A stretch of DNA of 64,000 nt. Source: Geobacteraceae bacterium. Lineage in GTDB: Bacteria; Desulfobacterota; Desulfuromonadia; Geobacterales; Pseudopelobacteraceae. The translations under genes were made by a program, and so were the position numbers. Of this stretch, positions 17,518 through 34,585 are shown in pieces (positions within the stretch are counted from its first letter, which is position 1; every line of letters begins with the position of its first letter). The DNA lies in the NCBI GenBank assembly GCA_025355325.1, contig JANXZX010000101.1:20922-84921 (forward strand). Direction: 5' to 3'. Under the pieces are notes generated by a model. It saw nothing but the letters and a program-made list of their open reading frames with translations. It was not told where the DNA came from and did not search any database.

Positions 17518-19095
17518 GTGCGTATATTTATCTCCATCAGCTTGCTAGTCTGTATGTTGGCCATGAGTTTTACCGCCTGGACTGCTGAGGATCGTTCTCT
17601 GATTGTCCGCAAGAAGAGCTCTTCCACCGAACGGCGCCTGGCATTGGTTATCGGTAACAACAGCTATCAGGACGCACCACTGAAAAACCCGATGAACGAT
17701 GCCGATGCCATGGCCGCAGCCCTTAAAGAAACAGGCTTTGAGGTAATTATACGCAAAAACGCTGACAGGCGTGCCATGTTTTCCGCCATTAAAGAGTTCG
17801 GCCAGAAGCTGAAGAAAAATGATGTTGGCCTTTTCTACTACGCCGGTCATGGCATTCAGGTTGAAAGCCTGAATTACCTGCTTCCGGTTGACCTGCGCAA
17901 CAGCGACCTGCAGGATGCCGATGACCTGCGCCGCGACGCCCTGCCTCTTAACGAACTTATGGAACGAATGCGGGACGCCGGCACCAACAACATCGTCATA
18001 CTTGATGCCTGCCGCGATAATCCTTTTCTGGCTAAATTGAGTAGAAGTTCCTCGCGTGGTCTGGCCAAAGTGGTTACACCGGCCAGTACATCAATCCTCT
18101 ATTCCACGGATCCCGGCAATACAGCATCGGACGGCGCGAGCGGTGATAACGGCATCTTCACAAAACACCTGGTGGGGACAATCCGCAAGGAAGGACTGGA
18201 ACTTGTTGACGTCATGCGCGAGGTTTCCCTCGCGGTCAATCGCGATACTTCAGGCGTACAGAGACCGGTCTTTGACGGAGTATTGTCGTCCAAATTCTAT
18301 TTTAATCCATTAGAAGCGCCATTACCTCCTGTCACAATCCCCACCGTGCCTGCGACTACAGTTACACCTGTTTCGGACCTGCGGTTTTGGGAAAGCGCAG
18401 AAAAGGCAAATACACTCTCCGCATACCGTGCCTATTTAAAAAAATTCCCCTCTGGTGATTTTGCGGATATTGCCTTAGATAAAATTCAGCAGTTTGAGGC
18501 TGATAAAACCAGGGCGACAGAAGCATCTAAAGCCGATCTTGAGAGAAAAACTCTTGAAGTCGCAGAAAAGGAACGATTGATAAAGGAACGACTGGAACAG
18601 GATCGACGATTGAAAGAATTGGAAGCAAAGCTCGTGCAAACGGAGGAAAGATCAAAGCAGATTGGAAATAAATTCCTTAAATCTATTGAAGTAAAAAAAG
18701 GAATAGAGACTAATAAATGCAAGGAATACTCCGATGATCCCCTGATCTATACTGACCCGCAGACCTGCCTGATGTGGCCGAGGAATGGGAACCTGGCTGA
18801 CAAAAAGCTTGATTTGAACGACGCCAGAAAGTGGGCAAAGAAACTAACTTATGGTGGCTACAGTGACTGGCGAGTACCAACAGTTGATGAACTTGAGACT
18901 TTTATTAAACAAGGGGGCAGGAGACCCTCTGAGTGGCTTAATAGTTCAGGTTTTAACAACGCCAAAGACCAATACTATTTAACCTCCAGCAAAAGAATGT
19001 GGACCATTGTCATCGATTTATATAGTGGCAGCATAAATGACAGGATAGCCCAGCCTTCATCCTCCTACGTCTGGCCAGTTCGCGGCGGAGAGTAA
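17518..19095 (+). CDS. Caspase-like (peptidase C14) protein with C-terminal DUF1566/Lcl domain
   Basis: RLALVIGNNSYQ, FYYAGHGIQ and IVILDACRDNPF His/Cys dyad; LMWPRNGN...DWRVPTVDELETFI C-terminus; signal peptide. Confidence 0.9.
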   Translation: MRIFISISLLVCMLAMSFTAWTAEDRSLIVRKKSSSTERRLALVIGNNSYQDAPLKNPMNDADAMAAALKETGFEVIIRKNADRRAMFSAIKEFGQKLKKNDVGLFYYAGHGIQVESLNYLLPVDLRNSDLQDADDLRRDALPLNELMERMRDAGTNNIVILDACRDNPFLAKLSRSSSRGLAKVVTPASTSILYSTDPGNTASDGASGDNGIFTKHLVGTIRKEGLELVDVMREVSLAVNRDTSGVQRPVFDGVLSSKFYFNPLEAPLPPVTIPTVPATTVTPVSDLRFWESAEKANTLSAYRAYLKKFPSGDFADIALDKIQQFEADKTRATEASKADLERKTLEVAEKERLIKERLEQDRRLKELEAKLVQTEERSKQIGNKFLKSIEVKKGIETNKCKEYSDDPLIYTDPQTCLMWPRNGNLADKKLDLNDARKWAKKLTYGGYSDWRVPTVDELETFIKQGGRRPSEWLNSSGFNNAKDQYYLTSSKRMWTIVIDLYSGSINDRIAQPSSSYVWPVRGGE

Positions 19096-19431
19096 TTTTG
19101 CTTCATATAGGGCGGCTGGCGTTTCCTCAGCATTGCAAACCCCTTATCCGTGCAATTTTATAAGTTCTTTTACCTTTTTATTGCTACACCTGCCAGCACA
19201 ACTCCCACGGGGAGACTAGATATTACAGCGAATGGCGGAGTATTTTAGTAGCGAACAGGTTGACTGAAATCCCCATAACAACCAGAGGCGTTAAGTTATT
19301 TCAGAAAGACTCAGAAAAGTCTGTGGCCTAGTTTACTGAAGCGACTGTAGTGGCGAATACAAAACCCGTGGAGATTAAAAAGTAGCAGAATTTATCTACA
19401 CTTCCGAAAAGAAGAGAAGGCAGGGAAGAAG

Positions 19432-19761
19432 TCAAAAGTCTGATGTACCGGTGTATCGACCGCTGGGAAGTCTGGTGCAAAAGCGCCCTCTATAATATTT
19501 ACCATCCGGGCACAAAGCAAAAAATCCAATGTTGTGAATAAATATGGCTGAAGGGGATGACATAGGTTCGATACCATTATCCGCTACGATGCTACTAACA
19601 AGAACTAAACCGCACTTAGTCCCTTGAATATACGTACCGTCAACCGGACATTGCCTGCATTTACCATCGAGATGGTACGTGCCATTGGGACAATGTATAG
19701 CAGCATACAACGGAGACGCAAATAAGATACTGAGAACAATTAAAATAATCTGTTTTGCCAT
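19432..19761 (-). CDS. Small secreted Cys-rich hypothetical protein
   Basis: Signal peptide; repeated CPxGxY...C motifs. Confidence 0.5.
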   Translation of the reverse strand: MAKQIILIVLSILFASPLYAAIHCPNGTYHLDGKCRQCPVDGTYIQGTKCGLVLVSSIVADNGIEPMSSPSAIFIHNIGFFALCPDGKYYRGRFCTRLPSGRYTGTSDF

Positions 19762-20319
19762 TCTGGCAATCAACATACTTCGATTAACCATACATGGGCT
19801 CCTTAACAGCATTTATTCTCTCTTATATTATCCTTAAGAAAAACTGCTTATGAAACCTATATCCAATACAATAAATTTAAATACTAATAATTATATAAAT
19901 ACTATGAACAACACAAGGAGACGACCAAAATATATTGCGTTAAAAACTATATCTTTCCATACTGAACCAAGCAAAACACATTACGGCGCTTCATAACACG
20001 AACTTTTCAAACAAACAACATAAATTTACCGTAGAAAAACCACCTATTTTAACCGATAAGTATAGTACAATCGTACATCTATTAGCACAAGATAACACAA
20101 CTTCATCTATCTCCACTCTATACACTAACAATTCAACGCAAATCAGATAAACTTACGGTACTTACGAAACAGTTTTACAGTCGACATATTTGAAGCGTTT
20201 TTATTCGGTATTTTCCACTCAAGAAAAATCACATTTTTTTAGTGAAAAAATACCGCTGAACGTCTAAAATGTCTCCGCTGGTCAATTCAAATGAATTAAA
20301 ACTTCCAAGGAGGGAACCC

Positions 20320-21531
20320 ATGAATAACAGATTGATCCAATTATCCCTGGCACTTGCAGCTGGAGCACTGTTCTTGTCTGGCTGTGCAACCGTCCAACCA
20401 AAGTGCACTTCCGCCGGAGACAATTCTGCTCACCATTATCTGATTGGCATGAAAGCACTGGAAGACAACAAGATTCCGGTTGCTCAGGAAAAGTTTGAAC
20501 GCGCCCTGTATTGCGACGAAGAGTTCAGCACCGCCCACTCGGGACTGGCAATTGTCCTGGCTGAAAGAGTAAAAGCCCAGGCTGACCAGGGCTTCAAGAA
20601 TGTTGAAATGGAGCGCGTCGCCGAAGAACTGAAGAAAGCAAAAAAATATGCCGACCGCCCGGATCAGTTTTTCGATTACTACGCTGCGGTAATTCGTACC
20701 AATACCCTTACGAAACCAAAGAATTGGCTTATCAATGCTGAGGACGCCTATATTGAAGGCGCTAAACTGAAAGTGGATGAGCGCAATCTGACCTACTACT
20801 TGGGAACAGAAGCTCTCCCCTATTTCATGGGTGTTGCCTGGCTTGAGGGGAATGAATTCCAAAAAGCACGCGACTCTTTCAGCACTGTTCTGGGTGCCAA
20901 GCGGGAAGGCAAATGGCATGAAAAAGCCGACAAGGGCTGGAAGCGGGTTGACAAAATTGTCCGTGCCATGAGCGGAATCACCGTCGGTGATGTCGGCAAG
21001 TTAATCGCACCAAAAGATAGCGTTTCCCGTGCCGACCTGGCAGCACTCATCATCGACGAGTTGAAGATTGAAAAATTGATGGCCGGACGGATTCCACTTT
21101 CCTCCCAGTCTGCAAAAAAAGCCGAGTTTACACCCGCTGACATGACTTCCCACGCATTCAAAGAGGAAGTTCTCACTCTGATGAAGTGGAACGTTCGCGG
21201 CATGGAACCGAAATACGATGAAACCACCCGCGCTTACCTGTTCAAGCCAAACGATCCGGTATCCCGTGGCGAAATGGCTTTTATCCTGGAAGACGTGCTG
21301 ATAAAACTGACCGCCAATGAAAAAATTGCCACCGCCTATTTTGGACAGGACAATTCACCGTTCCCTGATGTCAAGGCAACCTCGGTGTATTACAATGCCG
21401 TCATGAACATGACCAGCCGCAGTATCATGGAAGGCGAGTTGTCCGGCGAATTCAGAGTCAACGCTCCGGTAGACGGCGCCGAAGCCCTGTTGGCCAGCCG
21501 CGTCCTTAAACAGAAAATAAATACTTACTAA
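20320..21531 (+). CDS. TPR lipoprotein with SLH-like repeats
   Basis: Lipobox LFLSGC; TPR-like helices; C-terminal PFPDVKATSVYYNAVMNMTSRSIMEGE SLH-like. Confidence 0.75.
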   Translation: MNNRLIQLSLALAAGALFLSGCATVQPKCTSAGDNSAHHYLIGMKALEDNKIPVAQEKFERALYCDEEFSTAHSGLAIVLAERVKAQADQGFKNVEMERVAEELKKAKKYADRPDQFFDYYAAVIRTNTLTKPKNWLINAEDAYIEGAKLKVDERNLTYYLGTEALPYFMGVAWLEGNEFQKARDSFSTVLGAKREGKWHEKADKGWKRVDKIVRAMSGITVGDVGKLIAPKDSVSRADLAALIIDELKIEKLMAGRIPLSSQSAKKAEFTPADMTSHAFKEEVLTLMKWNVRGMEPKYDETTRAYLFKPNDPVSRGEMAFILEDVLIKLTANEKIATAYFGQDNSPFPDVKATSVYYNAVMNMTSRSIMEGELSGEFRVNAPVDGAEALLASRVLKQKINTY

Positions 21532-21551
21532 ACACCAGGGGGGAATCGTTT

Positions 21552-22472
21552 ATGAAAACAATAATCGCAACAGTTCTGCTTACACTTGCCTTTGCCGTTG
21601 CCGCCAGCGCCGACAGCATTGAAATCAACGCAGCCTTTACAAAAACACAGAAAATGCTCAACGATAAAAACCTTGCACTTACCGGTGGGCCGGGTGGTGC
21701 TCGTGACGACCTGTCAGCTTTCACTCAGGAAACACTTATGTTTTATGGGGAAGCTGTAGGAAACCCCATCCATAAGTCACCTGCACAACGTGAACTGATG
21801 GCAAAACGCGCTGCGGTTGTCACGGCACAACGCGCTCTTATGGAATATATTGAAGGTTTTGTTCTGGTCGGCGTAACTCTGGTAAAAGACGGCATGGCAG
21901 AGAATGACGTTATTGTCTCTACGGTGGCCGGCATGGTTAAAGGTAGCGTGGTTGTTTCTCAGGAATATAACAAAGAAACTGACACCGCTATCGCCGTAAT
22001 CAAGCTGGGAATGCACGGACCAAAAGGTTTTGCTTCCGCTTTCTATGAGAAGATGAACAGTGATCCCAAGCTGAAAGAAATGATCAAAACCGATAAGAAA
22101 CCTTTTAAAGCAGATGCAATCAAGCTTGATGAAAAGTATGACGGCCTGATAATCGACGCCACCGAGCAAAACTTCCGCCCGGCACTTATCAACCGGATAT
22201 TTGCAGCCAAAGGCGACATACTGTACGATCCTGCAAAAGTCAGCCAGAAGGTTCTTGTCGAGCAGGGCTGCGGTGAATACACCAACACTGTTGACAAAGC
22301 CAAAGCTGCTCTGGAAACAAGAGGGGTAAAGAATCCTCTCATTATTAAAGCAACCGGCACGGTCAATCCATCCGACCTCCAGGTTACAGATGACGATGCC
22401 GTAACCATTTACTCTGCCAACCAGAAGGGCAGCTTCATGGCATCAGCAAAAGTGGCCTTCGTATTGAAATGA
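21552..22472 (+). CDS. LPP20-like exported protein
   Basis: Signal peptide; MAKRAAVVTAQRALMEYIEG region typical of LPP20/FlgT-like proteins. Confidence 0.6.
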   Translation: MKTIIATVLLTLAFAVAASADSIEINAAFTKTQKMLNDKNLALTGGPGGARDDLSAFTQETLMFYGEAVGNPIHKSPAQRELMAKRAAVVTAQRALMEYIEGFVLVGVTLVKDGMAENDVIVSTVAGMVKGSVVVSQEYNKETDTAIAVIKLGMHGPKGFASAFYEKMNSDPKLKEMIKTDKKPFKADAIKLDEKYDGLIIDATEQNFRPALINRIFAAKGDILYDPAKVSQKVLVEQGCGEYTNTVDKAKAALETRGVKNPLIIKATGTVNPSDLQVTDDDAVTIYSANQKGSFMASAKVAFVLK

Positions 22473-22485
22473 AACGCAAACGGAT

Positions 22486-22520
22486 TACGGGGTGGCCTTG
22501 GGGTCACCCCGTTTTTTTTG
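22486..22520 (+). terminator. Rho-independent terminator
   Basis: ACGGGGTG...CACCCCGT stem followed by T8. Confidence 0.85.
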
Positions 22521-22543
22521 GTGAAAATTGATGGGAGGTCGCT

Positions 22544-24316
22544 GTGAAACCCATGAGTCCTTTAAGGCCCAAAGTGCCCCGCTACTATCTGTCTCTACTT
22601 GTCGCAATTTTTGTAATCTCTACAAACCCCGCCTGGGCCAAGACAGTAGTAATTGAGGGGACGCTCAACGGGACGGTCACGGTAAAGAAAAATGTAACTT
22701 TTTCTGTTGATCAGACACTCAGTCAGTTCGACTACCAGTTTTCGGTGCCATCCGTTTATGACTCCGCCGGTAATATTCAGCGGCTCGATAATTTCAAGGT
22801 TGTGGCAACCCCGCAGCCGACGGAAGCGAAAGAGACCACCGATCAGTATGGCAATCGTTCCCGCAAGCTGTCATGGCGCAATCTGCAAAGCGATGCTCAG
22901 ATAAACATCAGCTATACCACCGATATTACCGCAAACATCTCCCCACACACAAGTCGAGCACCATTTCCCCTGACAGGCATCCCTCAATCTGAACGGCAAT
23001 TTCTAAAAAAAAGCAAGCTCGTTCAGAGCGATTCCCCTCAGGTAACTGAGCTGGCCCAGGAGCTGACTGCCGGTGCCACAACTGAGCACAAGGCGGTAAA
23101 CGCCATTCTCACCTATGTTGCCGATGCCATCAAGTATCAGTATAACCCAAAAGAATATGACGCTCTTTACGGACTCACCACCGGTACCGGAAACTGTCAG
23201 AATTTTTCTCACCTTGCCATAGCTCTGCTGCGGGCCTCCGGCATTCCTGCCAGGATCTCGATTGGTCAGGCACTGAAAAACAAGTGGAAGATCCCGTTGG
23301 ACAACAAAGGGTCGTCACTGGTGCAGGGCATCGGAGAAGGCCTGCATGCCTGGATAGAGGTCTGGTACCCCGATATGGGTTGGCTTCCGTGCGACCCCCA
23401 GATGTCGAAGCTGTTCACCTCTACGCGCCATATCAAGTTTGGTCATGGCCTGGATGCATCTGATATCCTTGAATACTGGAGCGCACTGCCGGTCGTTCCC
23501 CGAATGACCGAAAATCTGGACGCAGCATACTCAACCGACACGGTTGATCTGCGCTTTCGCGAGGCGTTTGCCCAGCCTGCCAGTTATCTGATTGCCGGCC
23601 TGGTAAATGATGTAAAACCGGCGCAGAAAGAAGCACCGACAATCATACCGCCACCGGTTTTGACACCTCCGCCACCGACAATCAAACCGCCGCCTGTTAC
23701 ACTCCCTCAGCCGTCGAAACCCAAGCCGAAGGCCAGCAAACCGAAGCCGAAGCCGAAACCGGAATCTGTGCAGCAAAAACCGGGCATTCCGGTAGAGATC
23801 GGTAATCGAGACTTCCCAACCATGGTCGAGGCATATCAGGTGGATGGCAACGTCGGTCGCCCAAGCTTCGACAGGGAGACTGCCGAATACGCAACCTCCA
23901 AGTATCTTTACGCTCAGGCATTCACCATTAATTCTCCGCTTGCCATCAAAGATGCCGGACTTGCCATGCGCAAGTTTGGCGGTGACGGCACAGTGTATCT
24001 TGATGTTGTCCGGGATGAAGGTGGTAAACCAAGTCTGGACGGGATTCGCTCCATGCCGGTTTCTTTGGAAAAGATAACGCGCAAACCGGGTTACTATTGG
24101 GTCGATTTCACACTGCCGGAAAACACGAGGCTTGCACCGGGAAAATACTGGCTGGTGCTGAGGCATTCCGGCGAAGCGATCATGAACTGGTTCTACACCC
24201 CCGGCAAACGGGTTAATGGCCCTGATGACAGCCGCTCGACCGCCAAAGGCTGGCAGTGGGAAGATATTCTGGCTGGAGAATTTGTCTACCGGGTGCGTGG
24301 TGTGGTCTCAAAATAG
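22544..24316 (+). CDS. Transglutaminase-domain exported protein with Pro/Lys-rich linker
   Basis: TGTGNCQNFSHLAIALLRASGIPARI, HAWIEVWYPDMGWLPCDP (Cys-His-Asp triad); PPPP/KPKPKP linker. Confidence 0.88.
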   Translation: MKPMSPLRPKVPRYYLSLLVAIFVISTNPAWAKTVVIEGTLNGTVTVKKNVTFSVDQTLSQFDYQFSVPSVYDSAGNIQRLDNFKVVATPQPTEAKETTDQYGNRSRKLSWRNLQSDAQINISYTTDITANISPHTSRAPFPLTGIPQSERQFLKKSKLVQSDSPQVTELAQELTAGATTEHKAVNAILTYVADAIKYQYNPKEYDALYGLTTGTGNCQNFSHLAIALLRASGIPARISIGQALKNKWKIPLDNKGSSLVQGIGEGLHAWIEVWYPDMGWLPCDPQMSKLFTSTRHIKFGHGLDASDILEYWSALPVVPRMTENLDAAYSTDTVDLRFREAFAQPASYLIAGLVNDVKPAQKEAPTIIPPPVLTPPPPTIKPPPVTLPQPSKPKPKASKPKPKPKPESVQQKPGIPVEIGNRDFPTMVEAYQVDGNVGRPSFDRETAEYATSKYLYAQAFTINSPLAIKDAGLAMRKFGGDGTVYLDVVRDEGGKPSLDGIRSMPVSLEKITRKPGYYWVDFTLPENTRLAPGKYWLVLRHSGEAIMNWFYTPGKRVNGPDDSRSTAKGWQWEDILAGEFVYRVRGVVSK

Positions 24317-24331
24317 GGAGGAGCACATAAC

Positions 24332-25405
24332 ATGAAGCGACTGACAATAAGTTTGATGATTCTGATGCTACTCTGCCTTGCAGGGCAGACGGTGTTTGCT
24401 GCCGGTGTAGCTTCCGCACGCAAGCTAAGCGGTGACGTGACGTACCGTACCGGAAAGCAAGCGCAGTATGCAGCACTTGCTGCGGGAGCAACTCTGGCGG
24501 AAGGGAATTGGGTACATACCGGCAAAAACGGTTGGGTGGAACTGCTACTCCCTGACGGCAGCACCATCACTTTGGCCAACAATACCGAACTTGAACTGAC
24601 CCGGCTGAAGATCGGCAAGGATAAACGGGAGGGTGTTTTCGGCCTGGCCCAGGGGAAGCTGAGGGCCTCTGTGGTGAAGGTGGCCGGTAAACAGGCCGAT
24701 TACAAAATCAAAAGCAGTACGGCTGTAGCCGGCGTTAAAGGAACCGAATTCCTGATGATGACTACGGGCCCGGCCAACGTATTCTTCGGCAACGAAGGAA
24801 AGGTGTCGATTGGCGGCACCGGCAAGGAGCAAAAACAGATACAGGAAGGCACCATGACCCAGACCACCCGTGGTTATGAACCGCTGGAACCTGTTTCTGT
24901 GGAGAAGGGCAGCGCCCTGGCCGAAGCAAAAGATACCTTTAATGCTATTACCGGGAGTATTCCACCTGCGGACTGGATGGCTGGCGACGCCCTGCCGATC
25001 ATCATTGCCCGCTGGAACGTCAACTACAGCCGGTACCTGACAGACCGCGGCAGTTATCAGGAAGCGCTGCGAGTGCTTCAGATTGCCATTGACCTGACCC
25101 AGGCGGCCGAAATAAGAGCCGATGCATGGCTGGAACGGGGTACCATCCAGGGACGTTTTCTTGATAACCCGCGTGCTGCCCTGGCTGAATTCCTTCTGGT
25201 GCTGGAAGAGTATTCACGTTTGCCACAGGCCGAACTGGCCCTGTTCCAGGTTGGACAAACCCTTTACGAGCTAAAACTCTACGATCAGGCTGCCGAGCGC
25301 CTGAATCAGTATCTCAGCACCTATCCGAACGGTAGATTCCGCAACAAAGTCGAGGTGCTGTTGAACAGCCTGAATACTCTGCCCAAATCAAAGGGCACTA
25401 AATAA
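24332..25405 (+). CDS. FecR-domain exported protein with TPR C-terminus
   Basis: SGDVTYRTG...LAEGNWVHTGKNGWVELLLPDGSTITLANNTELEL...AVAGVKGTEFLM. Confidence 0.88.
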   Translation: MKRLTISLMILMLLCLAGQTVFAAGVASARKLSGDVTYRTGKQAQYAALAAGATLAEGNWVHTGKNGWVELLLPDGSTITLANNTELELTRLKIGKDKREGVFGLAQGKLRASVVKVAGKQADYKIKSSTAVAGVKGTEFLMMTTGPANVFFGNEGKVSIGGTGKEQKQIQEGTMTQTTRGYEPLEPVSVEKGSALAEAKDTFNAITGSIPPADWMAGDALPIIIARWNVNYSRYLTDRGSYQEALRVLQIAIDLTQAAEIRADAWLERGTIQGRFLDNPRAALAEFLLVLEEYSRLPQAELALFQVGQTLYELKLYDQAAERLNQYLSTYPNGRFRNKVEVLLNSLNTLPKSKGTK

Positions 25406-27516
25406 TGAAGCTGTTTCGCCAGGGGGTAACCAGATACCAGCTTGCAATATTTCTGATTATTGCCGTGCTGTCAGCAATTGCCGGGCTGGTCCTCTACCGG
25501 GAAACGTTTCCTTTCGCCCAACAGATTGACCTGCGGCTCAAGGATGCCCGTTTAAATATTCGCGGAGTACAGCGATCGACTGCTCCCGTTACCATAGTTG
25601 CCATTGACAACAAGAGCATCAAGGAACTGGGTCGATGGCCATGGTCGCGGGAATTGACCGCCAGACTGATCAGCGCCACTGCCGGTCAAGGTGCCCGGAC
25701 AATAGCTCTGGATATGGTTTTTTCCGAGCAGCAGACAGAAGAGACTGATAGAGCCCTTGCCACATCCATCGCTAAAGCGGGCAATGTGGTGGAGGGCTAT
25801 TTTTTCAGGGGGGAGGAGCAGCAGGATGACCCCAATCTGCTCGACCAACTGGCAAAATCAAAAATAGCAATGATTAAGATGGCTCCCGGAGTTGAAGCTG
25901 TTCCGCTACCGACCTATGAGCAGGTGGACGGCAACATCGCCGAAGTAGGGAACGGTGCCGCCGGTTTCGGATATTTTAACCAAATTGCTGATTTTGACGG
26001 CCTGTATCGCTCTGTTCCTTTACTGATGCTCTTCCGGGGAGACATCTACCCATCCCTCGCGTTGGCCGCCACAAACCACTTTCAGCGAAACCAGTTGCAG
26101 GTGGATATCGAGCAGTTCGGCGTCTCCAGCATCAGATCAGGCGATAATACAATTCCTGCGAATGAACAGGGAAAACTGTCTCTGGCCTATTACGGGCCGG
26201 GTGCAACCTTACACACCGTGTCAGCTGCCGATGTCATCGCCGGACGCCTGCCTGCCGGAACACTGAAAGACCGCTTGATATTTATCGGCGTTACTGAAAC
26301 AGGCATTGCTGATTTGCGGGCCACCCCTCTGGACCCCTCTTATCCGGGAGTGGAGATTCATGCCACGTTAGCCGCCAATATTCTTGAGCGTACGTTCCTG
26401 ACCCGTGGCAGCCAGACTATGGCAATCGAAATGGCAGCTATATTTTTATTTCCACTGCTGCTGACATTCTTCCTGGCCGCTGTTCCGGGGGCTTTATACG
26501 CCTTGTCCGTCTTTTTTGTTCTGGCGGCAGGATATCTTGGAACGAACATCCACCTATTCAATGCGTACAATCTGGACCTGAGTATTGCGTACCCCCTTCT
26601 ACCGCTTATCTTTACCTATCTGGGTGGAGAATGCTTCCGCAACCTTGTCGTTGAACGCAAGGGGCGGCATCTTAAAAAGGCCTTCAGCACCTATCTCTCA
26701 GCTGATCTTGTGGCGGAAATAGCCAAAAATCCGGATTTTCTGAAGTTGGGCGGAGAAACCCGTACTATTTCGATTCTTTTTTCCGACATCCGCGGTTTTA
26801 CTACTATTTCAGAAAGTCTTACACCTGAAAAACTCGTAGCCCTGCTGAATCGCTATCTATCACCCATGACCCGCATCGTCATGGAAGAGAAGGGCACACT
26901 CGACAAGTTTATCGGCGACGCCATAATGGCTTTCTTCAACGCACCGCTGAATGTGCCCGATCATCCGGATAAGGCCTGTAGCTGCGCATTACGGATGTTG
27001 AAAGAGCTGGAATCGCTGAACACCCAACTGAAAATCAATGACATACCTGCCATTGCAATCGGCATTGGAATTCATACTGGTGAAGCGGTTGTCGGCAACA
27101 TGGGAGCTGACATTCGCTTTGACTACACTGCAATCGGCGATTCAGTCAATCTTGCTTCGCGTCTGGAAAGTCTTACCAAGTTCTACGGTGTTTCGGTTCT
27201 CGTGAGCGAAGATACCCGCCAGCTCGTCGGCAACGAATTCCAATTCCGCGAACTGGATCTCGTGCGCGTCAAGGGTAAACACAAACCTGTTGCCGTCTAT
27301 GAGTTACTTACGGGATCCACCGAATTTTCAGATTCATTTGCCGAAGGCATCAGACTTTACCGTGAGCGTGACTTTGAAAAGGCGCACGAGATTTTTGAGC
27401 GCCTTTCAAATTGTAACGATAAAGTTTCAGGATTGTATGTAGAACGCTGCCAGACATTCCTGTCAGATCCGCCTGATGCCGACTGGGACGGTGTTTACGT
27501 TGCGTTATCGAAGTAA
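25405..27516 (+). CDS. CHASE2-domain adenylate/guanylate cyclase
   Basis: N-terminal CHASE2 (VTIVAIDNKSIKELGRWPWSREL), three TMs, class III cyclase (ILFSDIRGFTTISESL, GDAIMAFFNAP). Confidence 0.93.
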   Translation: MKLFRQGVTRYQLAIFLIIAVLSAIAGLVLYRETFPFAQQIDLRLKDARLNIRGVQRSTAPVTIVAIDNKSIKELGRWPWSRELTARLISATAGQGARTIALDMVFSEQQTEETDRALATSIAKAGNVVEGYFFRGEEQQDDPNLLDQLAKSKIAMIKMAPGVEAVPLPTYEQVDGNIAEVGNGAAGFGYFNQIADFDGLYRSVPLLMLFRGDIYPSLALAATNHFQRNQLQVDIEQFGVSSIRSGDNTIPANEQGKLSLAYYGPGATLHTVSAADVIAGRLPAGTLKDRLIFIGVTETGIADLRATPLDPSYPGVEIHATLAANILERTFLTRGSQTMAIEMAAIFLFPLLLTFFLAAVPGALYALSVFFVLAAGYLGTNIHLFNAYNLDLSIAYPLLPLIFTYLGGECFRNLVVERKGRHLKKAFSTYLSADLVAEIAKNPDFLKLGGETRTISILFSDIRGFTTISESLTPEKLVALLNRYLSPMTRIVMEEKGTLDKFIGDAIMAFFNAPLNVPDHPDKACSCALRMLKELESLNTQLKINDIPAIAIGIGIHTGEAVVGNMGADIRFDYTAIGDSVNLASRLESLTKFYGVSVLVSEDTRQLVGNEFQFRELDLVRVKGKHKPVAVYELLTGSTEFSDSFAEGIRLYRERDFEKAHEIFERLSNCNDKVSGLYVERCQTFLSDPPDADWDGVYVALSK

Positions 27517-27532
27517 TATACGGAGGTCCTCC

Positions 27533-29842
27533 ATGCCTAAATGGCACTATGTTATTAAAGCCGCATCACTGTCTTTAACAGGATTGATTATTTCACTGTC
27601 CGTTGCCGGTTTTTGTTGTGCGGCAGATAAATCCAAGCCGGCGAAACTTGTGCCGACCAGTGCTGATGCTACGTGTGTGCTGCCGATATCAGGGCAGTAT
27701 TTTGATGCAGGAAATGTTGCCTCAGGTAATTTTTCAATTAACCTCAACAGTGCATTCACCACCCAACAGGTGGCGCAGGTGGAAAACAGCGTCAAGGCAT
27801 GCCAGAGCCTCATATCCAGCAGACTTCTCGGCCTCCAGGACAGGGGTTCACTGCTCATGCAGGATAAAGCGTCGATGCAGGGGATGCAAAACATCAAGAC
27901 CCAGATAAATCGCCTGGAGGCTTTAAAGAGAGAAAAAGAAGAGATCAAGAGCACTCTGAGCAAAGACATTTCCCAGGTTGCATTGAAAGGGCTGTACGCA
28001 GTGGTGCTTGAGGCGGATCTGAAAACGCCCCGGGACAAGTTATTGGAAATGGCGAAAAATCTGATCGCGCCTCAGGCCATTCAGGACATCAGGGGAGTTT
28101 CGATAAACTCTGTTTCGGTTGTCAAAGACAGCAGGCTCGTATTCGACCGCATTGTGGCGGAAACATCCGGTGAAATGGACGTTGAAACCATCCTTACTGA
28201 TGATCGCAAATCTTTTTCCGGAAAATCTCAGCTGCTGTACGTGGCGGTAGTCCGGGTGAAACCACTTACCGGAAAAATAAAGCACGGGACGTCCGCAAAA
28301 AGCTCAACGAAAGGTTTTGTGGCAGACCTGCTTTCACTTCAGAAAAATTCGGAATTTTTCTCGCAGGAGTTGGCTAAGTATACGAACAAAACCTATTCTA
28401 CTGAAAAAATGAAGTCCCTCGAAGAAATTGTTTCGGTATGGCAAAATGTAGTCCAGCAGGGAAACGCCCAGGCAACCAAGAAAACCGGGGAGTTGCTTGC
28501 GAACCTTAACAACCAGCTTCAGGCGAAAGATGCCGAAATTGAGGCAGCCGGCCTGAAAATTACGGATTCTCGAAAAAAACTCACCGAGCTTTACACTGTG
28601 ACCAGATACAACAAATGCAAGCTGAACCCGGAAGAGTGTCTTGATGATGCAATTGCCCATATTGATCAGGAATTTGGCACTGTAATCAATGCAAGCATCG
28701 CCGAGAAGGAGAGAGAGTACGTTTCATCGAGGGGCATTGTAACCGGAAGCGGGGATCCCGAAAAAGAGGTCAAGCGACTCGTACAGGATTTTTATCAGAA
28801 CCTCAGAATGTCGTATTCAAAACGTGAGCAGATATTGAACGTGACGGCAGTGGAAAACATGATGCTGACAAGTGCCAGTGATACGCGGGGCTACTACGTT
28901 GTCAGGAACCCGAGAGGTGTCACGATATTTCCCTATTATGATGACAACGGCAATATGCACACTATGGTGGCAATGAATTTCCAGGTGAACCGTGAAAGCG
29001 TATCGGCACAGACAACTGACGAGCCTGTACAGCAGGCGAAACCAACGCCAAAACCGCCACGCAAGTCAGAATCAAAACCTGTGCCGCAACCCAAAAAAAT
29101 AACCCGCGCAGAGCCTCCTCCGCCTCAACCGGCTCCGCAACTGCCGACTTCCTGCACAACCGACAGCATAACCGGAATGAAATTTGTTCTGGTCAAGAGC
29201 GGCTGTTACCTGATGGGAGATAACAGCAGTAAAGACACACCATTCCACGAAGTGTGTTTAAGCAGCTTCTGCATCGGTAAGTACGAGGTAACGCAAGGCG
29301 AGTGGAAAAAAATAATGGTGATCGAAAACCCCTCAAAGAACAAGAGCGGTAACGACTACCCGGTTGAAAATGTGAGTTGGGGTGATGCAAAAGGTTTTCT
29401 TGAGGAGCTGAACAAAAGGACCGGAAGCAACTATCGTCTGCCGACAGAGGCGGAGTGGGAATTTGCGGCTCGAAGTCGTGGTTCCGAAGCTACATGGTCT
29501 GGCACATCAACAGAGTCTGCACTTGGCACCTTCGCCTGGTATAAGGTTAATTCAGACGGCAAAACTCATCCGGTGGGCAAGAAAAAACCAAACAAACTCG
29601 GCTTATATGACATGACCGGGAACGTGTGGGAATGGGTGGAGGACAGCTTCAGTTCAGATGCGTACAAAACACACAGCAAAGACAACCCTGTTAACGAATC
29701 TGGGGGGCGCTCAAAGGTACGCAGAGGGGGCTGCATGGAAACCGATGCGAAGAAAATGAAGAATAACGACCGCGATGGACATCGACAGGGAGGAAATTCA
29801 GGCGAGCTTGGCTTCAGAGTTGTTTTTTCAGTGGATCAGTAA
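27533..29842 (+). CDS. SUMF1/FGE-sulfatase domain protein with N-terminal coiled region
   Basis: KYEVTQGEWKKIM, YPVENVSWGDAKGFLEELN, YRLPTEAEWEFAARS, GNVWEWVEDSF. Confidence 0.9.
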   Translation: MPKWHYVIKAASLSLTGLIISLSVAGFCCAADKSKPAKLVPTSADATCVLPISGQYFDAGNVASGNFSINLNSAFTTQQVAQVENSVKACQSLISSRLLGLQDRGSLLMQDKASMQGMQNIKTQINRLEALKREKEEIKSTLSKDISQVALKGLYAVVLEADLKTPRDKLLEMAKNLIAPQAIQDIRGVSINSVSVVKDSRLVFDRIVAETSGEMDVETILTDDRKSFSGKSQLLYVAVVRVKPLTGKIKHGTSAKSSTKGFVADLLSLQKNSEFFSQELAKYTNKTYSTEKMKSLEEIVSVWQNVVQQGNAQATKKTGELLANLNNQLQAKDAEIEAAGLKITDSRKKLTELYTVTRYNKCKLNPEECLDDAIAHIDQEFGTVINASIAEKEREYVSSRGIVTGSGDPEKEVKRLVQDFYQNLRMSYSKREQILNVTAVENMMLTSASDTRGYYVVRNPRGVTIFPYYDDNGNMHTMVAMNFQVNRESVSAQTTDEPVQQAKPTPKPPRKSESKPVPQPKKITRAEPPPPQPAPQLPTSCTTDSITGMKFVLVKSGCYLMGDNSSKDTPFHEVCLSSFCIGKYEVTQGEWKKIMVIENPSKNKSGNDYPVENVSWGDAKGFLEELNKRTGSNYRLPTEAEWEFAARSRGSEATWSGTSTESALGTFAWYKVNSDGKTHPVGKKKPNKLGLYDMTGNVWEWVEDSFSSDAYKTHSKDNPVNESGGRSKVRRGGCMETDAKKMKNNDRDGHRQGGNSGELGFRVVFSVDQ

Positions 29843-29856
29843 TTTCCTTCAAAACG

Positions 29857-29894
29857 CATAATGCGAGTCACCAACCGTGGTGACTCGCATTATG
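29857..29894. terminator. Perfect 17-bp palindrome (4-nt loop) between convergent genes; likely bidirectional terminator
   Basis: CATAATGCGAGTCACCA-ACCG-TGGTGACTCGCATTATG. Confidence 0.6.
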
Positions 29895-29925
29895 TCAAGC
29901 TACTTCCATTCCAACAGATATATGA

Positions 29926-30651
29926 TTATTCATCCAACTTTATAGAATCTCTCGTTTTTTCACGACGCTTTTCATCTTTTGCGGAAAACTTGGCTAAACA
30001 TTCCTTACTTTTATCCACCATGGCGCAGGTTAGATAATCAGCGATATTAATCACGCATGCTCGAATAGCCTTGCCAGCAGGAGTTTTTTCCTCACTTTCC
30101 GTATGTCCTCCAACACCCATAAAACTTCCGGAAAGCCTGAGAGCTGATGATTCAGAGTTTGCCTCTATGGTACGCGTTTCTATTACTTCGCTCGTTTCTA
30201 CTTCAACAACCTTCAGGTCAACGGCTATATAAGCTTTTGCTTTCCCTCCCCCGACGCCAAAACCCATGAAATTGAGTCCCCCGCCCTTCTTGGCGGCATT
30301 TTCTTCAAATGAGGACACTGTTGCGGTAACGATATACTGGGCACCCTTAATCTTGCCCAGCTTGGATTTGGTGGAAGGCTCTACAAGGCCGGATTCTCCG
30401 AATTTGAGTTCACTGACAACTTTGTCAATTTCTTTCCGTTCAACCAACTTGAATTTCTTGGTACTTGCCAGTTCATTGGTCAACATATCGGAAAGCTCAG
30501 CCCCGGTTCCGGATCTCCACCATGACGCGTGAGTATTGTTGGTAAACCGCATGACCGCGAGACGCGGAGCGTCGGATCCTGCAGCATATACAGTGGAAGA
30601 AACAGCGCTTAACACGAGCAGACAGAGAGACATTCCAATAACTTTCTTCAT
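29926..30651 (-). CDS. CsgG-like exported protein
   Basis: RLAVMRFTNNT...LSDMLTNELASTKKFKLVERKEIDKVVSEL; QYIVTATVSSFEE. Confidence 0.82.
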   Translation of the reverse strand: MKKVIGMSLCLLVLSAVSSTVYAAGSDAPRLAVMRFTNNTHASWWRSGTGAELSDMLTNELASTKKFKLVERKEIDKVVSELKFGESGLVEPSTKSKLGKIKGAQYIVTATVSSFEENAAKKGGGLNFMGFGVGGGKAKAYIAVDLKVVEVETSEVIETRTIEANSESSALRLSGSFMGVGGHTESEEKTPAGKAIRACVINIADYLTCAMVDKSKECLAKFSAKDEKRREKTRDSIKLDE

Positions 30652-30893
30652 GGTGAATCCTCCTCAATATTTTTTATTGCGACTTTGTTGTGTTTCTCAG
30701 GAAGTAAAGTGAAAATGACGTACCACTATCATCTGCCATCAGGAGTTCAGAGAACCAACATGTCCATTTTCGAACGTAGTTATACCATCACAAAGCGAGA
30801 AGTCAAGCTTCTCATAAAGAGGTGTATCTATTTGATTTTATAAGTTATTATGCACTAATTTATATTTCGGATCACACTGTCCTACGCCAGCAG

Positions 30894-32042
30894 TTACTCT
30901 CTGATATATTTCAACTTTAACGTCTGTCTACTAAATTCAACAAGCTTGAACTTTCCCTTCTGTTCAAGACTGTTAGCCAGATAGATCGGATTTTCGGAAT
31001 ATTTCACCTCAAACTCTCCAATACCGGCGTCGGCCACTTCGAGAACCCACACGGTATTCTGAAGAATATCCTTGATGGCAAAATTATCACTCAATTCAGA
31101 TACGTCACTGACTTTGATGGCAACTTTTTTCGAAACACCCTGAATATTTTTACTTACTTTATCCAAAATGACCGGCGTAAGTTTATCCGTAATTTCTTTC
31201 AAACTTACCGCCGCAGCATCTTCAACACTGCCTGCAAGCCCTTTCCCCTGCTCAACGCCTGCTGCAAGTATCACCATGCCCCCCTTGGCATCCTTGGTGA
31301 CCAGTCGATAGGTCAATCGCGCAGTAACATTATTGAAAGGCATCGATAATCCGTACCCGATATTTTCACCTTTTTTGGTTGAAACGGTGTACTCAACCTT
31401 ACCGATCAGCAGCAGATTGGTGAGGAACTTGTACATCAGGGATCGCATACTGAGGAATTTCCCGCTTTTTATCGCAGAGTCAACAACCTGCGAGTCAAGT
31501 ACATTCGCTGCGGCAATATCTGTAACCGTGTAGCCCTGGTCCACCAGTTTGCCGATAATGGATTCCGAAAGAATGTTTGATTCTTCGTAATGGGCGCCCC
31601 CCCGTGGCGACATATCCTTGGATATTATGAAGACAGATATTGCATTATTCAGGGCTAAACCGGCCACGGCATCCTGAGCCTTTGTCGGCTCGACACAAGC
31701 GTTGACCCGGACCGAAAGGATTCCTTCTTTGGTGTTTTGGCTCAGCAGCTTGTATGTCGAGACTGCTCCCTTAAGCTCTTTGCTGATCGCATCATCCACC
31801 GCCATCAAGTTCTGCACGATACTCTGCGCTTTTACGTTAACTCCCACAACCTGCTCAATTGCAGCCCACTTGGCGCGTGCGATTGCTTCGGCTTTGGCGG
31901 AAGGGACATCGTTTTTGACAATGGCGGCTTCACCGTCGGTATCAACGCAGGTAATTTGGGCTATGGCAGGTTGCACAACACAAAAAAATATAAACAGTGA
32001 TAAGATTACTTGCATCATAGAGCCTCCCTTGTGTGCCTTCAT
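30894..32042 (-). CDS. Exported FlgT/LPP20-like protein
   Basis: Signal peptide; AKAEAIARAKWAAIEQVVG; Rossmann-like middle region. Confidence 0.6.
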   Translation of the reverse strand: MKAHKGGSMMQVILSLFIFFCVVQPAIAQITCVDTDGEAAIVKNDVPSAKAEAIARAKWAAIEQVVGVNVKAQSIVQNLMAVDDAISKELKGAVSTYKLLSQNTKEGILSVRVNACVEPTKAQDAVAGLALNNAISVFIISKDMSPRGGAHYEESNILSESIIGKLVDQGYTVTDIAAANVLDSQVVDSAIKSGKFLSMRSLMYKFLTNLLLIGKVEYTVSTKKGENIGYGLSMPFNNVTARLTYRLVTKDAKGGMVILAAGVEQGKGLAGSVEDAAAVSLKEITDKLTPVILDKVSKNIQGVSKKVAIKVSDVSELSDNFAIKDILQNTVWVLEVADAGIGEFEVKYSENPIYLANSLEQKGKFKLVEFSRQTLKLKYIRE

Positions 32043-32167
32043 TGTTGTGTCGGTAATATTACCACCAATGAAATTAGCTGAAAAGGGATTGTTTTTGATA
32101 GCATGTAGCCAAAGTTCTAAAAAAGTTGTACATTTCTGGGATATTCACTGGAATCGCTGGAGGTATC

Positions 32168-33052
32168 ATGGACCGAAGAACTTTTTTGAAAGCATCAGGC
32201 GCTGCGTCTCTTCTGGCACCGGTTCTTATCAGGGAGGCACTTGCCGCCAGAGAGCAATCACTGGTGGCCGTAGCAGAGGGCACTGATTATCCGGCCATCA
32301 CCCGCAAGGTCATCAACTCGCTCGGAGGCATGAAGAAGTTCGTCAAACCGGGTGACATCGTGGTGGTAAAACCGAACATGGGGTGGGATAAAGCCATTGA
32401 GTTTGCCGCAAACACACACCCACTGGTGGTTCGTACCGTGGTAGAGGAGTGTCTGGCGGCCGGAGCAAAAAAAGTTAAAGTGTTTGATAATACCTGCAAT
32501 GATTCACGCCGCTGTTATGTCAACAGCGGCATCGAGAATATTCTCAAGGGAATGAAGAACGTCGAGTGCAAACACATCGAAACGGAGCGCTTTAAAAAAG
32601 TTACCCTCAACGGTCACTTTCTCAAAGAGTGGGAACTATACGATGAAGCATTATCCGCCAATGTCTACATCAATGTGCCGATTGCCAAACACCACGGACT
32701 ATCCAAGCTGACGCTCGGCCTCAAGAACATCATGGGTATCATGGGTGGCAGTCGCGGCTACATTCACCGGAATATCGATGTGGCCCTGGCCGATCTGAAT
32801 GCCCATTTCAAGAGTCATCTGACGATTATTGACGCGACACGCATCCTGACGGCCCACGGCCCGCAAGGCGGCAACATCGCCGATGTAAAGGTGCTCAACA
32901 AAGTCATCGCCTCGACCGACATCGTTGCCGCAGATGCCTACGCCACCACCCTGTTTGGCCTGAAACCGGCCGATATTCCGGTGACGGTAGCAGCCTACAA
33001 ACGCGGCCTCGGAGAAATGGACCTGGGGAAAATTAAAATCGTGAAGGCCTAA
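32168..33052 (+). CDS. DUF362 protein with Tat signal
   Basis: MDRRTFLKASGAASLLAP; VVVKPNMGWD; HHGLSKLTLGLKNIMGIMGG. Confidence 0.88.
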   Translation: MDRRTFLKASGAASLLAPVLIREALAAREQSLVAVAEGTDYPAITRKVINSLGGMKKFVKPGDIVVVKPNMGWDKAIEFAANTHPLVVRTVVEECLAAGAKKVKVFDNTCNDSRRCYVNSGIENILKGMKNVECKHIETERFKKVTLNGHFLKEWELYDEALSANVYINVPIAKHHGLSKLTLGLKNIMGIMGGSRGYIHRNIDVALADLNAHFKSHLTIIDATRILTAHGPQGGNIADVKVLNKVIASTDIVAADAYATTLFGLKPADIPVTVAAYKRGLGEMDLGKIKIVKA

Positions 33053-33055
33053 AGC

Positions 33056-34585
33056 GTGAAGCGAACGCCGTCCCGCATCAGCCAGTTATTTTTTCTGGCG
33101 CTGTTTCTGATTCTGTTCGTCCAGACCGAATACCGCGGCAAAGATGAAATCAACGCTGCGGTAAACACCTTCTTCCGGGTTAATCCGCTGGTGCTGTTCA
33201 GTTATGTATTAGCCGCAAAATCGTGGACCTGGCTGCTACTGCCGGCATTGCTGATGACCCTGGCGACATTGGCCCTTGGGCGGTTCTTCTGCGGCTGGAT
33301 CTGTCCGCTCGGGACGATTCTCGACCTTGTCACCACACGAATCCGCAAGACCACCCCGATCAAGGCGCTCAAGGGAAACACCAAATACTGGCTGCTCCTG
33401 CCGCTACTGTCAGCATCACTATTCAATCTTAACCTCAGCGGCCTTCTCGATCCGATTGCCATTCTGCTCCGGGGGCTGACCTTTCTGCTCCATCCGCTGG
33501 CAGGCTTGGCGACCCGTGAAGCGTGGGTGGGACTTTATCACCTGATCGGCGAGCGCCGCGATGCTGTTGCCCCGGCGTATAATCTGATCCACGACAACAT
33601 TCTTCCCTTCCGGGATACAATCTATCCGCTGGCGCTGTTTTCAACGGTCGTACTCCTGACGATTATCGCTTTGGAACGCTTCGAGACCCGTACCTGGTGT
33701 CGTGATCTCTGCCCGTTGGGAACCCTGCTCGGATGGCTGGGAAGGTTCTCTCCATTTCGGCGGATACCGGCCGCTCTTTGTGGCGATTGCGGTGCATGCC
33801 GCGAACTCTGCCCGACCAGCTTTGATCAGAAGAACCTGGTGCAGGAGGAGTGTATCCTCTGCATGGATTGTCAGCGTGGCTGCCCGCATGAACGAATCTC
33901 GTTCCGCCCGTCACTGGCTTTAAAAGGTGCCGGCCCACTGCAGCCGGAGCGAAGGGTTCTACTGGGAGGAATGGCGGCAGGGGTACTGTTGGCCGTTCCC
34001 GCAAAATTCCGCTCCCCCGAGCAGGTTTCCCGGCTGTTGCGACCGCCCGGTGTACGCAGCGAAGATGAATTCCTGAAGCGCTGCGTGCGTTGTGGGGAGT
34101 GCATGAAAGTCTGCCTCAAAAGCGCGCTCTACCCTGCTGCTTATCAGGCCGGTATCGAAGGATTTTATACCCCCCTGATGATCCCTCGGCTCGGATACTG
34201 CGAATATAATTGCACCCTCTGCGGACAGGTCTGCCCGACCGGCGCCATCCCCCTCCTCCCGGTGGAGTCCAAGCGTCGGGAAGTGGTCGGAAAGGCCGTC
34301 TTCGATAAGAACCATTGCCTGCCGTTTGCCCGCAAGATAGACTGCATTGTCTGCGAGGAGCACTGCCCGATTCCCGAGAAGGCCATCCGTTCTCGTGCTG
34401 TCACGGTTATTGGCATTGACGGGATTGCGAGAACGGTCAAGGAACCGTATATTGTCGAAGAAATCTGCAACGGTTGCGGCATCTGCGAGAATGTCTGCCC
34501 ACTTGAGACCAAGTCTGGTATTGATATATTTGCCGTGAAGGACCGGACGCCGATCAGCCGTGAACCTTCGTCCCCTTACGGGTAG
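33056..34585 (+). CDS. NapH/MauM-like membrane 4Fe-4S protein fused to ferredoxin-type domains (GTG start)
   Basis: FCGWICPLGTILD, several CX2CX2CX3CP motifs, N-terminal TMs. Confidence 0.9.
   Translation: MKRTPSRISQLFFLALFLILFVQTEYRGKDEINAAVNTFFRVNPLVLFSYVLAAKSWTWLLLPALLMTLATLALGRFFCGWICPLGTILDLVTTRIRKTTPIKALKGNTKYWLLLPLLSASLFNLNLSGLLDPIAILLRGLTFLLHPLAGLATREAWVGLYHLIGERRDAVAPAYNLIHDNILPFRDTIYPLALFSTVVLLTIIALERFETRTWCRDLCPLGTLLGWLGRFSPFRRIPAALCGDCGACRELCPTSFDQKNLVQEECILCMDCQRGCPHERISFRPSLALKGAGPLQPERRVLLGGMAAGVLLAVPAKFRSPEQVSRLLRPPGVRSEDEFLKRCVRCGECMKVCLKSALYPAAYQAGIEGFYTPLMIPRLGYCEYNCTLCGQVCPTGAIPLLPVESKRREVVGKAVFDKNHCLPFARKIDCIVCEEHCPIPEKAIRSRAVTVIGIDGIARTVKEPYIVEEICNGCGICENVCPLETKSGIDIFAVKDRTPISREPSSPYG

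Follow-up and report, generated by a model that had tools for sequence, protein, structure and literature searches.

What brings a caspase-like protease, a wall-binding lipoprotein, a transglutaminase-fold enzyme and a nucleotidyl cyclase together in one bacterial locus? We addressed this question for a cluster of nine genes at positions 17518–32042 of a 64,000-nucleotide stretch of Geobacteraceae DNA (contig JANXZX010000101.1, assembly GCA_025355325.1; hereafter the window). An earlier reading of the letters alone (the sequence-only reading) had described nine mostly exported proteins, and all nine open reading frames (ORFs) were found at the positions and strands it gave, with the same domain types (ORF list, Pfam). 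Inspection of the N termini identified export features in eight of the nine, as an ordinary signal, a lipobox (the TPR/SLH protein) or a signal-like N terminus; the cyclase is an inner-membrane protein by predicted membrane segments. On balance, though narrowly, we favour the view that this is a locus for an outer-membrane ring or channel assembly independent of flagella, anchored to the wall by an SLH lipoprotein, on which a FecR–CHASE2 adenylate cyclase reports. Its core comprises the TPR/SLH lipoprotein and the FlgP-like protein, whose consecutive genes are the conserved centre of the cluster, and the FlgT-like protein, together with CsgG/FlgO/GNA1162-type proteins; caspase and SUMF1 lie at its periphery. 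A ring core of FlgP, FlgT and CsgG type that is independent of flagella goes beyond what had been proposed. The genes that bear on this view are:

20320–21531, + strand: lipoprotein with TPR and two SLH repeats (Pfam), lipobox Cys22 and a Shine–Dalgarno sequence (core)
21552–22472, + strand: FlgP/LPP20-like ring-fold protein with a conserved C-terminal domain, matched by profile to FlgP structures; signal peptide without lipobox (core)
22544–24316, + strand: periplasmic transglutaminase-fold protein (TGL) with intact Cys-His-Asp (Transglut_core, 96 bits)
24332–25405, + strand: exported FecR and TPR protein (Pfam), putative sensor partner
25405–27516, + strand: CHASE2 class III nucleotidyl cyclase with adenylate-type residues Lys501 and Thr575
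29926–30651, − strand: CsgG-type outer-membrane protein (CsgG/LpoB; CsgG, 169 bits)
30894–32042, − strand: FlgT-like protein with a FlgP-type N domain followed by further alpha/beta domains (core)

Homology of the core proteins and the enzymes

FlgP, FlgT and FlgO form accessory rings of high-torque flagellar motors. The 21552–22472 protein, LPP20-like in the sequence-only reading and FlgP-like from here on, has no Pfam family. Its family profile matches FlgP chains with E values from 7e-11 to 1e-6 (9hmf, 6.6e-11; FlgP of 8z5n, 1.4e-6; also 9yfg). Residues 63–140 align continuously to residues 72–149 of 9hmf_C, through the hairpin insert between the helix and the second strand, and in this profile alignment the protein has the SHS2 domain with hairpin insert that marks the FlgP basal-disk family. 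The insert has been linked to ring formation in the Campylobacter motor (PMC12222027). The most conserved part of the protein is its C-terminal stretch of about 110 residues (195–306; DGLIIDA..RPALINRIF..AKVAFVLK), which has no Pfam match.

In the 30894–32042 protein, FlgT_N scores slightly under the Pfam cut-off (27.1 against 28.8 bits). The two best folds in the PDB for its AlphaFold2 model (predicted local distance difference test, pLDDT, 82) are both Vibrio FlgT (Foldseek; 8z5n_0, E 8e-9; 3w1e, E 2e-8; about 300 columns), so that by fold search this is a FlgT fold, with the N domain and further domains. Its profile also matches FlgP (9hmf, E 6e-7). Profile and fold searches were needed here because phmmer with the single sequence returned only noise. 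The CsgG-type protein matches CsgG crystal structures (E 1e-4). No PDB match was obtained with the profile of the TPR/SLH lipoprotein, whose ORF spans 20269–21531 and probably starts at the ATG at 20320, after AAGGAGGG; its gene and the FlgP-like gene are co-oriented in all 58 occurrences at related loci.

The catalytic residues of the two enzymes are conserved. The Cys-His-Asp triad of TGL is invariant in 36/36 sequences. A crosslinking role would be a guess from the name of the fold, which also serves proteases. In the cyclase, the metal-binding Asp461 and Asp505 together with Asn582 and Arg586 are invariant (9/9 sequences), and the adenine-type residues Lys501 and Thr575 occur in 7/9 and 8/9, respectively. 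This is the residue set of a class III adenylate cyclase and suggests cyclic AMP (cAMP) as the product.

Co-occurrence, linkage and distribution

By its own terms the sequence-only reading would have been refuted had these families scattered independently through related genomes, and they do not. Single-protein searches of 58 related genomes placed the FlgP-like gene in 23. TGL, FecR and the FlgT-like protein occur almost only with it (18/18, 18/19 and 13/14 genomes; Fisher p 7e-11, 1e-9 and 4e-6), the lone exception for both FecR and FlgT-like being one 66%-complete genome. The CHASE2-cyclase mostly does so (18/24, p 6e-6), and FecR is accompanied by the cyclase in 19/19 genomes (p 4e-11). 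Co-occurrence is evident within the genus and weaker beyond it. The genes are usually close as well: TGL, FecR and the cyclase lie less than 10 kb from the FlgP-like gene in 14, 12 and 9 of 18 genomes (chance below 1% each), and the cyclase, which adjoins FecR and TPR in the window, is within 10 kb of them in 16/19. Where TGL, FecR and cyclase genes are on other contigs than the core (G001, G002, G011 and G012), they are still present.

Wider searches used two anchors, giving 79 named loci for the FlgP-like gene and 30 loci fetched phylum-wide for the TPR/SLH gene. Carriers of the FlgP-like gene are Geobacterales/Desulfuromonadales, Syntrophorhabdales, Nitrospirota (Thermodesulfovibrionales, Magnetobacteriaceae) and some Betaproteobacteria (Hydrogenophilales, Thiobacillus). 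Around the 79 loci lie TPR/SLH (57), TGL (35), FlgT-like (about 36) and FecR (23) genes, and repeatedly CsgG-type and GNA1162-TPR proteins. Phylum-wide, 46 of 297 genomes carry the TPR/SLH lipoprotein, with a FlgP-like gene at 27 and a FlgT-like gene at 19 of its 30 loci; none of 20 control regions from carrier genomes shows these families. At loci of the Nitrospirota type the set is joined by FlgO (PF17680) and by CRP, a gene of the cAMP-receptor type. At one locus (L066) FecR, CHASE2-cyclase, GNA1162-TPR, CRP, FlgT-like, CsgG, TPR-SLH, FlgP-like, FlgO and TGL genes run in one direction, and the order in a complete genome is FlgT, GNA1162, CsgG, TPR/SLH, FlgP-like and f32. The last of these, f32, is a family of small exported proteins ending in F, outer-membrane beta-barrel-like and without a Pfam family, that recurs by the module (L074:472-1296, L054, L059, L060, L071 and L100). 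In a betaproteobacterial variant (L105, L107, L109–L113) the FlgP-like gene diverges from DUF4384-like, FecR and GNA1162-TPR genes, and its vicinity shows no match to TPR/SLH, TGL or CHASE2.

A proposed ring assembly and its alternatives

In the assembly that we favour, the FlgP-like and FlgT-like proteins, of SHS2 fold and bearing the ring-forming insert, would leave the cytoplasm and polymerise into rings that line the outer membrane on its inner side, with the CsgG/FlgO-type protein in or on that membrane inside the ring and, in some species, the beta-barrel-like f32 protein joining the rings. The TPR/SLH lipoprotein may anchor the structure, its lipid in the outer membrane and its SLH repeats on the cell wall, and in this lineage the transglutaminase-fold enzyme may mature or remodel the assembly or its cargo. 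In the periplasm, FecR-TPR would sense the state of the assembly and relay it to the CHASE2 domain of the adenylate cyclase, and cAMP would adjust expression via CRP-type regulators, with the caspase and SUMF1 proteins as possible add-ons.

Several points weigh against this view. Gene content, homologies, catalytic residues, linkage, co-occurrence and independence from flagella are shown; the ring, the pore, the interactions, the wall anchoring, the direction of signalling and cAMP as product are what we infer from them. The FlgP-like N terminus has no lipobox, a feature that some Helicobacter FlgP also lack (PMC11756786), and in this respect the protein departs from the lipoprotein character of the FlgP family; it also ends in an additional conserved domain that flagellar FlgP does not have. 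Its AlphaFold2 model is weak (pLDDT 70); a fold search with it returned Treponema pallidum Tp0624 and FlgP, and FlgP identity was therefore rested on the sequence profile. The TM-score of the FlgT-like model to FlgT is only about 0.3 and the domain arrangement differs, so that the likeness is one of common fold and domain order and not a close structural match. The Fisher tests ignore shared ancestry, the window locus itself has no CRP gene, and all 14 genomes with a FlgT-like gene among the 58 relatives also have FlgI (p 0.03, uncorrected).

The same proteins could instead serve CsgG-based secretion, the rings gating or bracing an outer-membrane export channel for a surface fibre or adhesin, with the TGL-fold enzyme processing cargo and cAMP controlling attachment or biofilm growth. 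A CsgG homologue in the cluster, fn3-repeat proteins adjoining the module in Nitrospirota-type loci, the f32 family beside many loci and the control of Burkholderia biofilm by a FecR and CHASE2 operon (PMC5192318) are all consistent with such a role. We nevertheless regard it as unlikely, since the substrate family varies, many loci have no CsgG nearby and no curlin repeat was found in 14 module-bearing genomes, the E. coli control being positive. Classical curli secretion, which shares the CsgG family (169 bits), is ruled out by these missing repeats; CsgE, CsgF and curlin families gave no match among the scanned representatives of neighbour families.

Improbable is the explanation that the locus encodes flagellar motor parts (basal disk, H/T ring) away from the flagellar genes, the others being bystanders. 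It would account for the homology to FlgP, FlgT and FlgO and for the FlgI in the 14 genomes noted above. However, the FlgP-like gene shows no association with FlgI among the 58 relatives (p 0.33) and many flagellated relatives lack the module. Conversely, eight genomes that are each at least 96% complete (G073, G076, G130, G145, G158, G207, G275 and G300) carry FlgP- and FlgT-like genes and no FlgI or rod/hook genes, and the module is therefore not flagellar in those organisms. G035 (99% complete) has the core pair, TGL, FecR and cyclase, yet no FlgI or rod/hook gene. Nor are the loci close to FlgI, lying at 3.54 Mb against 0.70 Mb in G046 and on different contigs in G000. Judged by gene content, the module does not work in the flagellar motor; a flagellar part is contradicted for the flagellum-less genomes and, given these carriers and the distance from flagellar genes, is ruled out as a general explanation.

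Similarly improbable is a variable genomic island, a hotspot in which unrelated envelope genes have gathered. The remaining features of the locus are:

17518–19095, + strand: exported caspase (Peptidase_C14) with Lcl_C (formerly DUF1566), peripheral, a separate transcription unit
22487–22520, + strand: intrinsic terminator, an 11-bp GC-rich stem followed by eight T
27476–29842, + strand, likely start 27533: coiled-coil and SUMF1/FGE-type protein (FGE-sulfatase, 144 bits), rare accessory
29858–29893: perfect 15-bp inverted repeat (6-nt loop) where the SUMF1 and CsgG genes converge
32126–34585, + strand: DUF362 and Fer4 pair, syntenic flank

In five same-genus genomes (L022–L025 and L027) the FlgP-like gene is followed directly by the DUF362 and Fer4 genes, and in four of them it is preceded by the TPR/SLH gene (L027 reads LPP20-DUF362-Fer4). 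In the window a six-gene block, TGL-FecR-cyclase-SUMF1-CsgG-FlgT, separates the two, so that it sits between gene pairs adjacent in sister genomes. This, the shuffled gene order among genomes and a Y1-type transposase at one locus (L010) speak for an island. Against it, the same gene families regroup with the core across bacterial families and phyla, and TGL, FecR and the cyclase accompany the core even from other contigs. The strong terminator divides the + strand genes into at least two units, first TPR/SLH with FlgP-like and then TGL-FecR-cyclase-SUMF1, whose junctions are short or overlapping; on the opposite (−) strand are the CsgG and FlgT-like genes, and the caspase gene lies 1.2 kb upstream of the TPR/SLH gene across an AT-rich gap. 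By linkage and co-occurrence, the grouping of the genes exceeds chance. The gap (19096–20319; GC 0.38) holds a sole ORF (19432–19812, −) without a Pfam family match, and an Rfam scan of the window gave no match.

A caspase-centred stress, death or phage-defence module is highly improbable: the caspase dyad is intact (His in YAGHG, Cys in DACRDNPF), caspases lie near 10/79 loci, above the expectation for a dispersed family, and PADLOC gave weak matches to generic caspase and Pycsar cyclase domains, but most core loci have no caspase, the nearest relative of the window caspase (61%) is a paralogue elsewhere in the same genome, and no Pycsar effector model was found among the nine proteins. With five copies in this genome and absence near most core loci, the caspase is ruled out as the centre that the sequence-only reading had made it, as is phage defence, for which no cognate partners were found. 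The SUMF1-type protein, also placed centrally there, is rare (4/58 relatives), but wherever it occurs it is part of this cluster.

A minority of loci have DUF4384 proteins nearby, or caspases of various architectures (Lcl_C, SUMF1, WD40). At L026, L046, L056, L058 and L075 the module adjoins WD40-repeat proteins whose C-terminal domain is a caspase. Elsewhere in the window's own genome (L032, C159), a caspase–SUMF1 fusion and a DUF4384 gene lie by SHMT, aminotransferase and sigma-54 regulator genes, which flank the FlgP-like cluster in G020 (L008) too. The transposase at L010 (4308–4850; G035) is IS200-like and lies between two caspase genes beside the cluster.

Comparison with known systems

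The sequence-only reading's recurrent envelope gene set with cyclase output, nameless in the open-access literature, is borne out. A broader proposal, which we hold tentatively and a little short of evenly, is that it belongs to an unnamed ring machine of the outer membrane, independent of flagella and widespread among Desulfobacterota and Nitrospirota, that perhaps gave rise by recruitment to the flagellar FlgP/FlgT/FlgO rings (or the reverse) and that here would be wired to cAMP via the FecR–CHASE2 cyclase. FlgP comes from a broad family and the basal disk has been called comparatively ancient (PMC12222027). The same FlgP/FlgT/FlgO protein classes in flagellum-less bacteria provide a concrete non-flagellar relative to study, making the role of such rings outside flagella a testable question in culturable Geobacterales, and CHASE2/FecR cyclases gain a candidate sensed object.

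With the flagellar basal disk of Campylobacter and Vibrio the locus shares the FlgP-type SHS2 fold with ring-forming insert, whereas the FlgP-like protein here is larger, has a conserved C-terminal domain and no lipobox, and is also found in flagellum-less genomes. With the FlgT/FlgO outer ring set it shares the FlgT-like fold and the adjacency of the FlgT-FlgO-FlgP gene classes, which in Vibrio are flgT-flgO-flgP, VF_1885-1883 (PMC3948606); its partners, in contrast, are the TPR/SLH lipoprotein, the transglutaminase and the cyclase. The Burkholderia BiofilmReg operon (PMC5192318) likewise pairs a FecR protein with a CHASE2 receptor, but there CHASE2 belongs to a histidine kinase that is accompanied by a response regulator, FecR carries LysM, and ring genes are not described. 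Closer on the signalling side is the FecR/CHASE2 adenylate cyclase/TPR/phosphodiesterase cluster of Campylobacterota (PMC9239204), which also has a CHASE2 cyclase beside an exported FecR protein with TPRs. The window locus differs in being linked to ring-type outer-membrane genes and in having no phosphodiesterase among its cluster ORFs (ORF list, Pfam); at its own locus (L045) Geobacter sp. OR-1 has an HD-GAF gene. We found no description in the open-access literature of the combined gene set, of the two halves joined, or of the ring half as a module free of flagella; taken separately, the flagellar flgT-flgO-flgP set is a match for the ring half and the Campylobacterota cluster for the signalling half.

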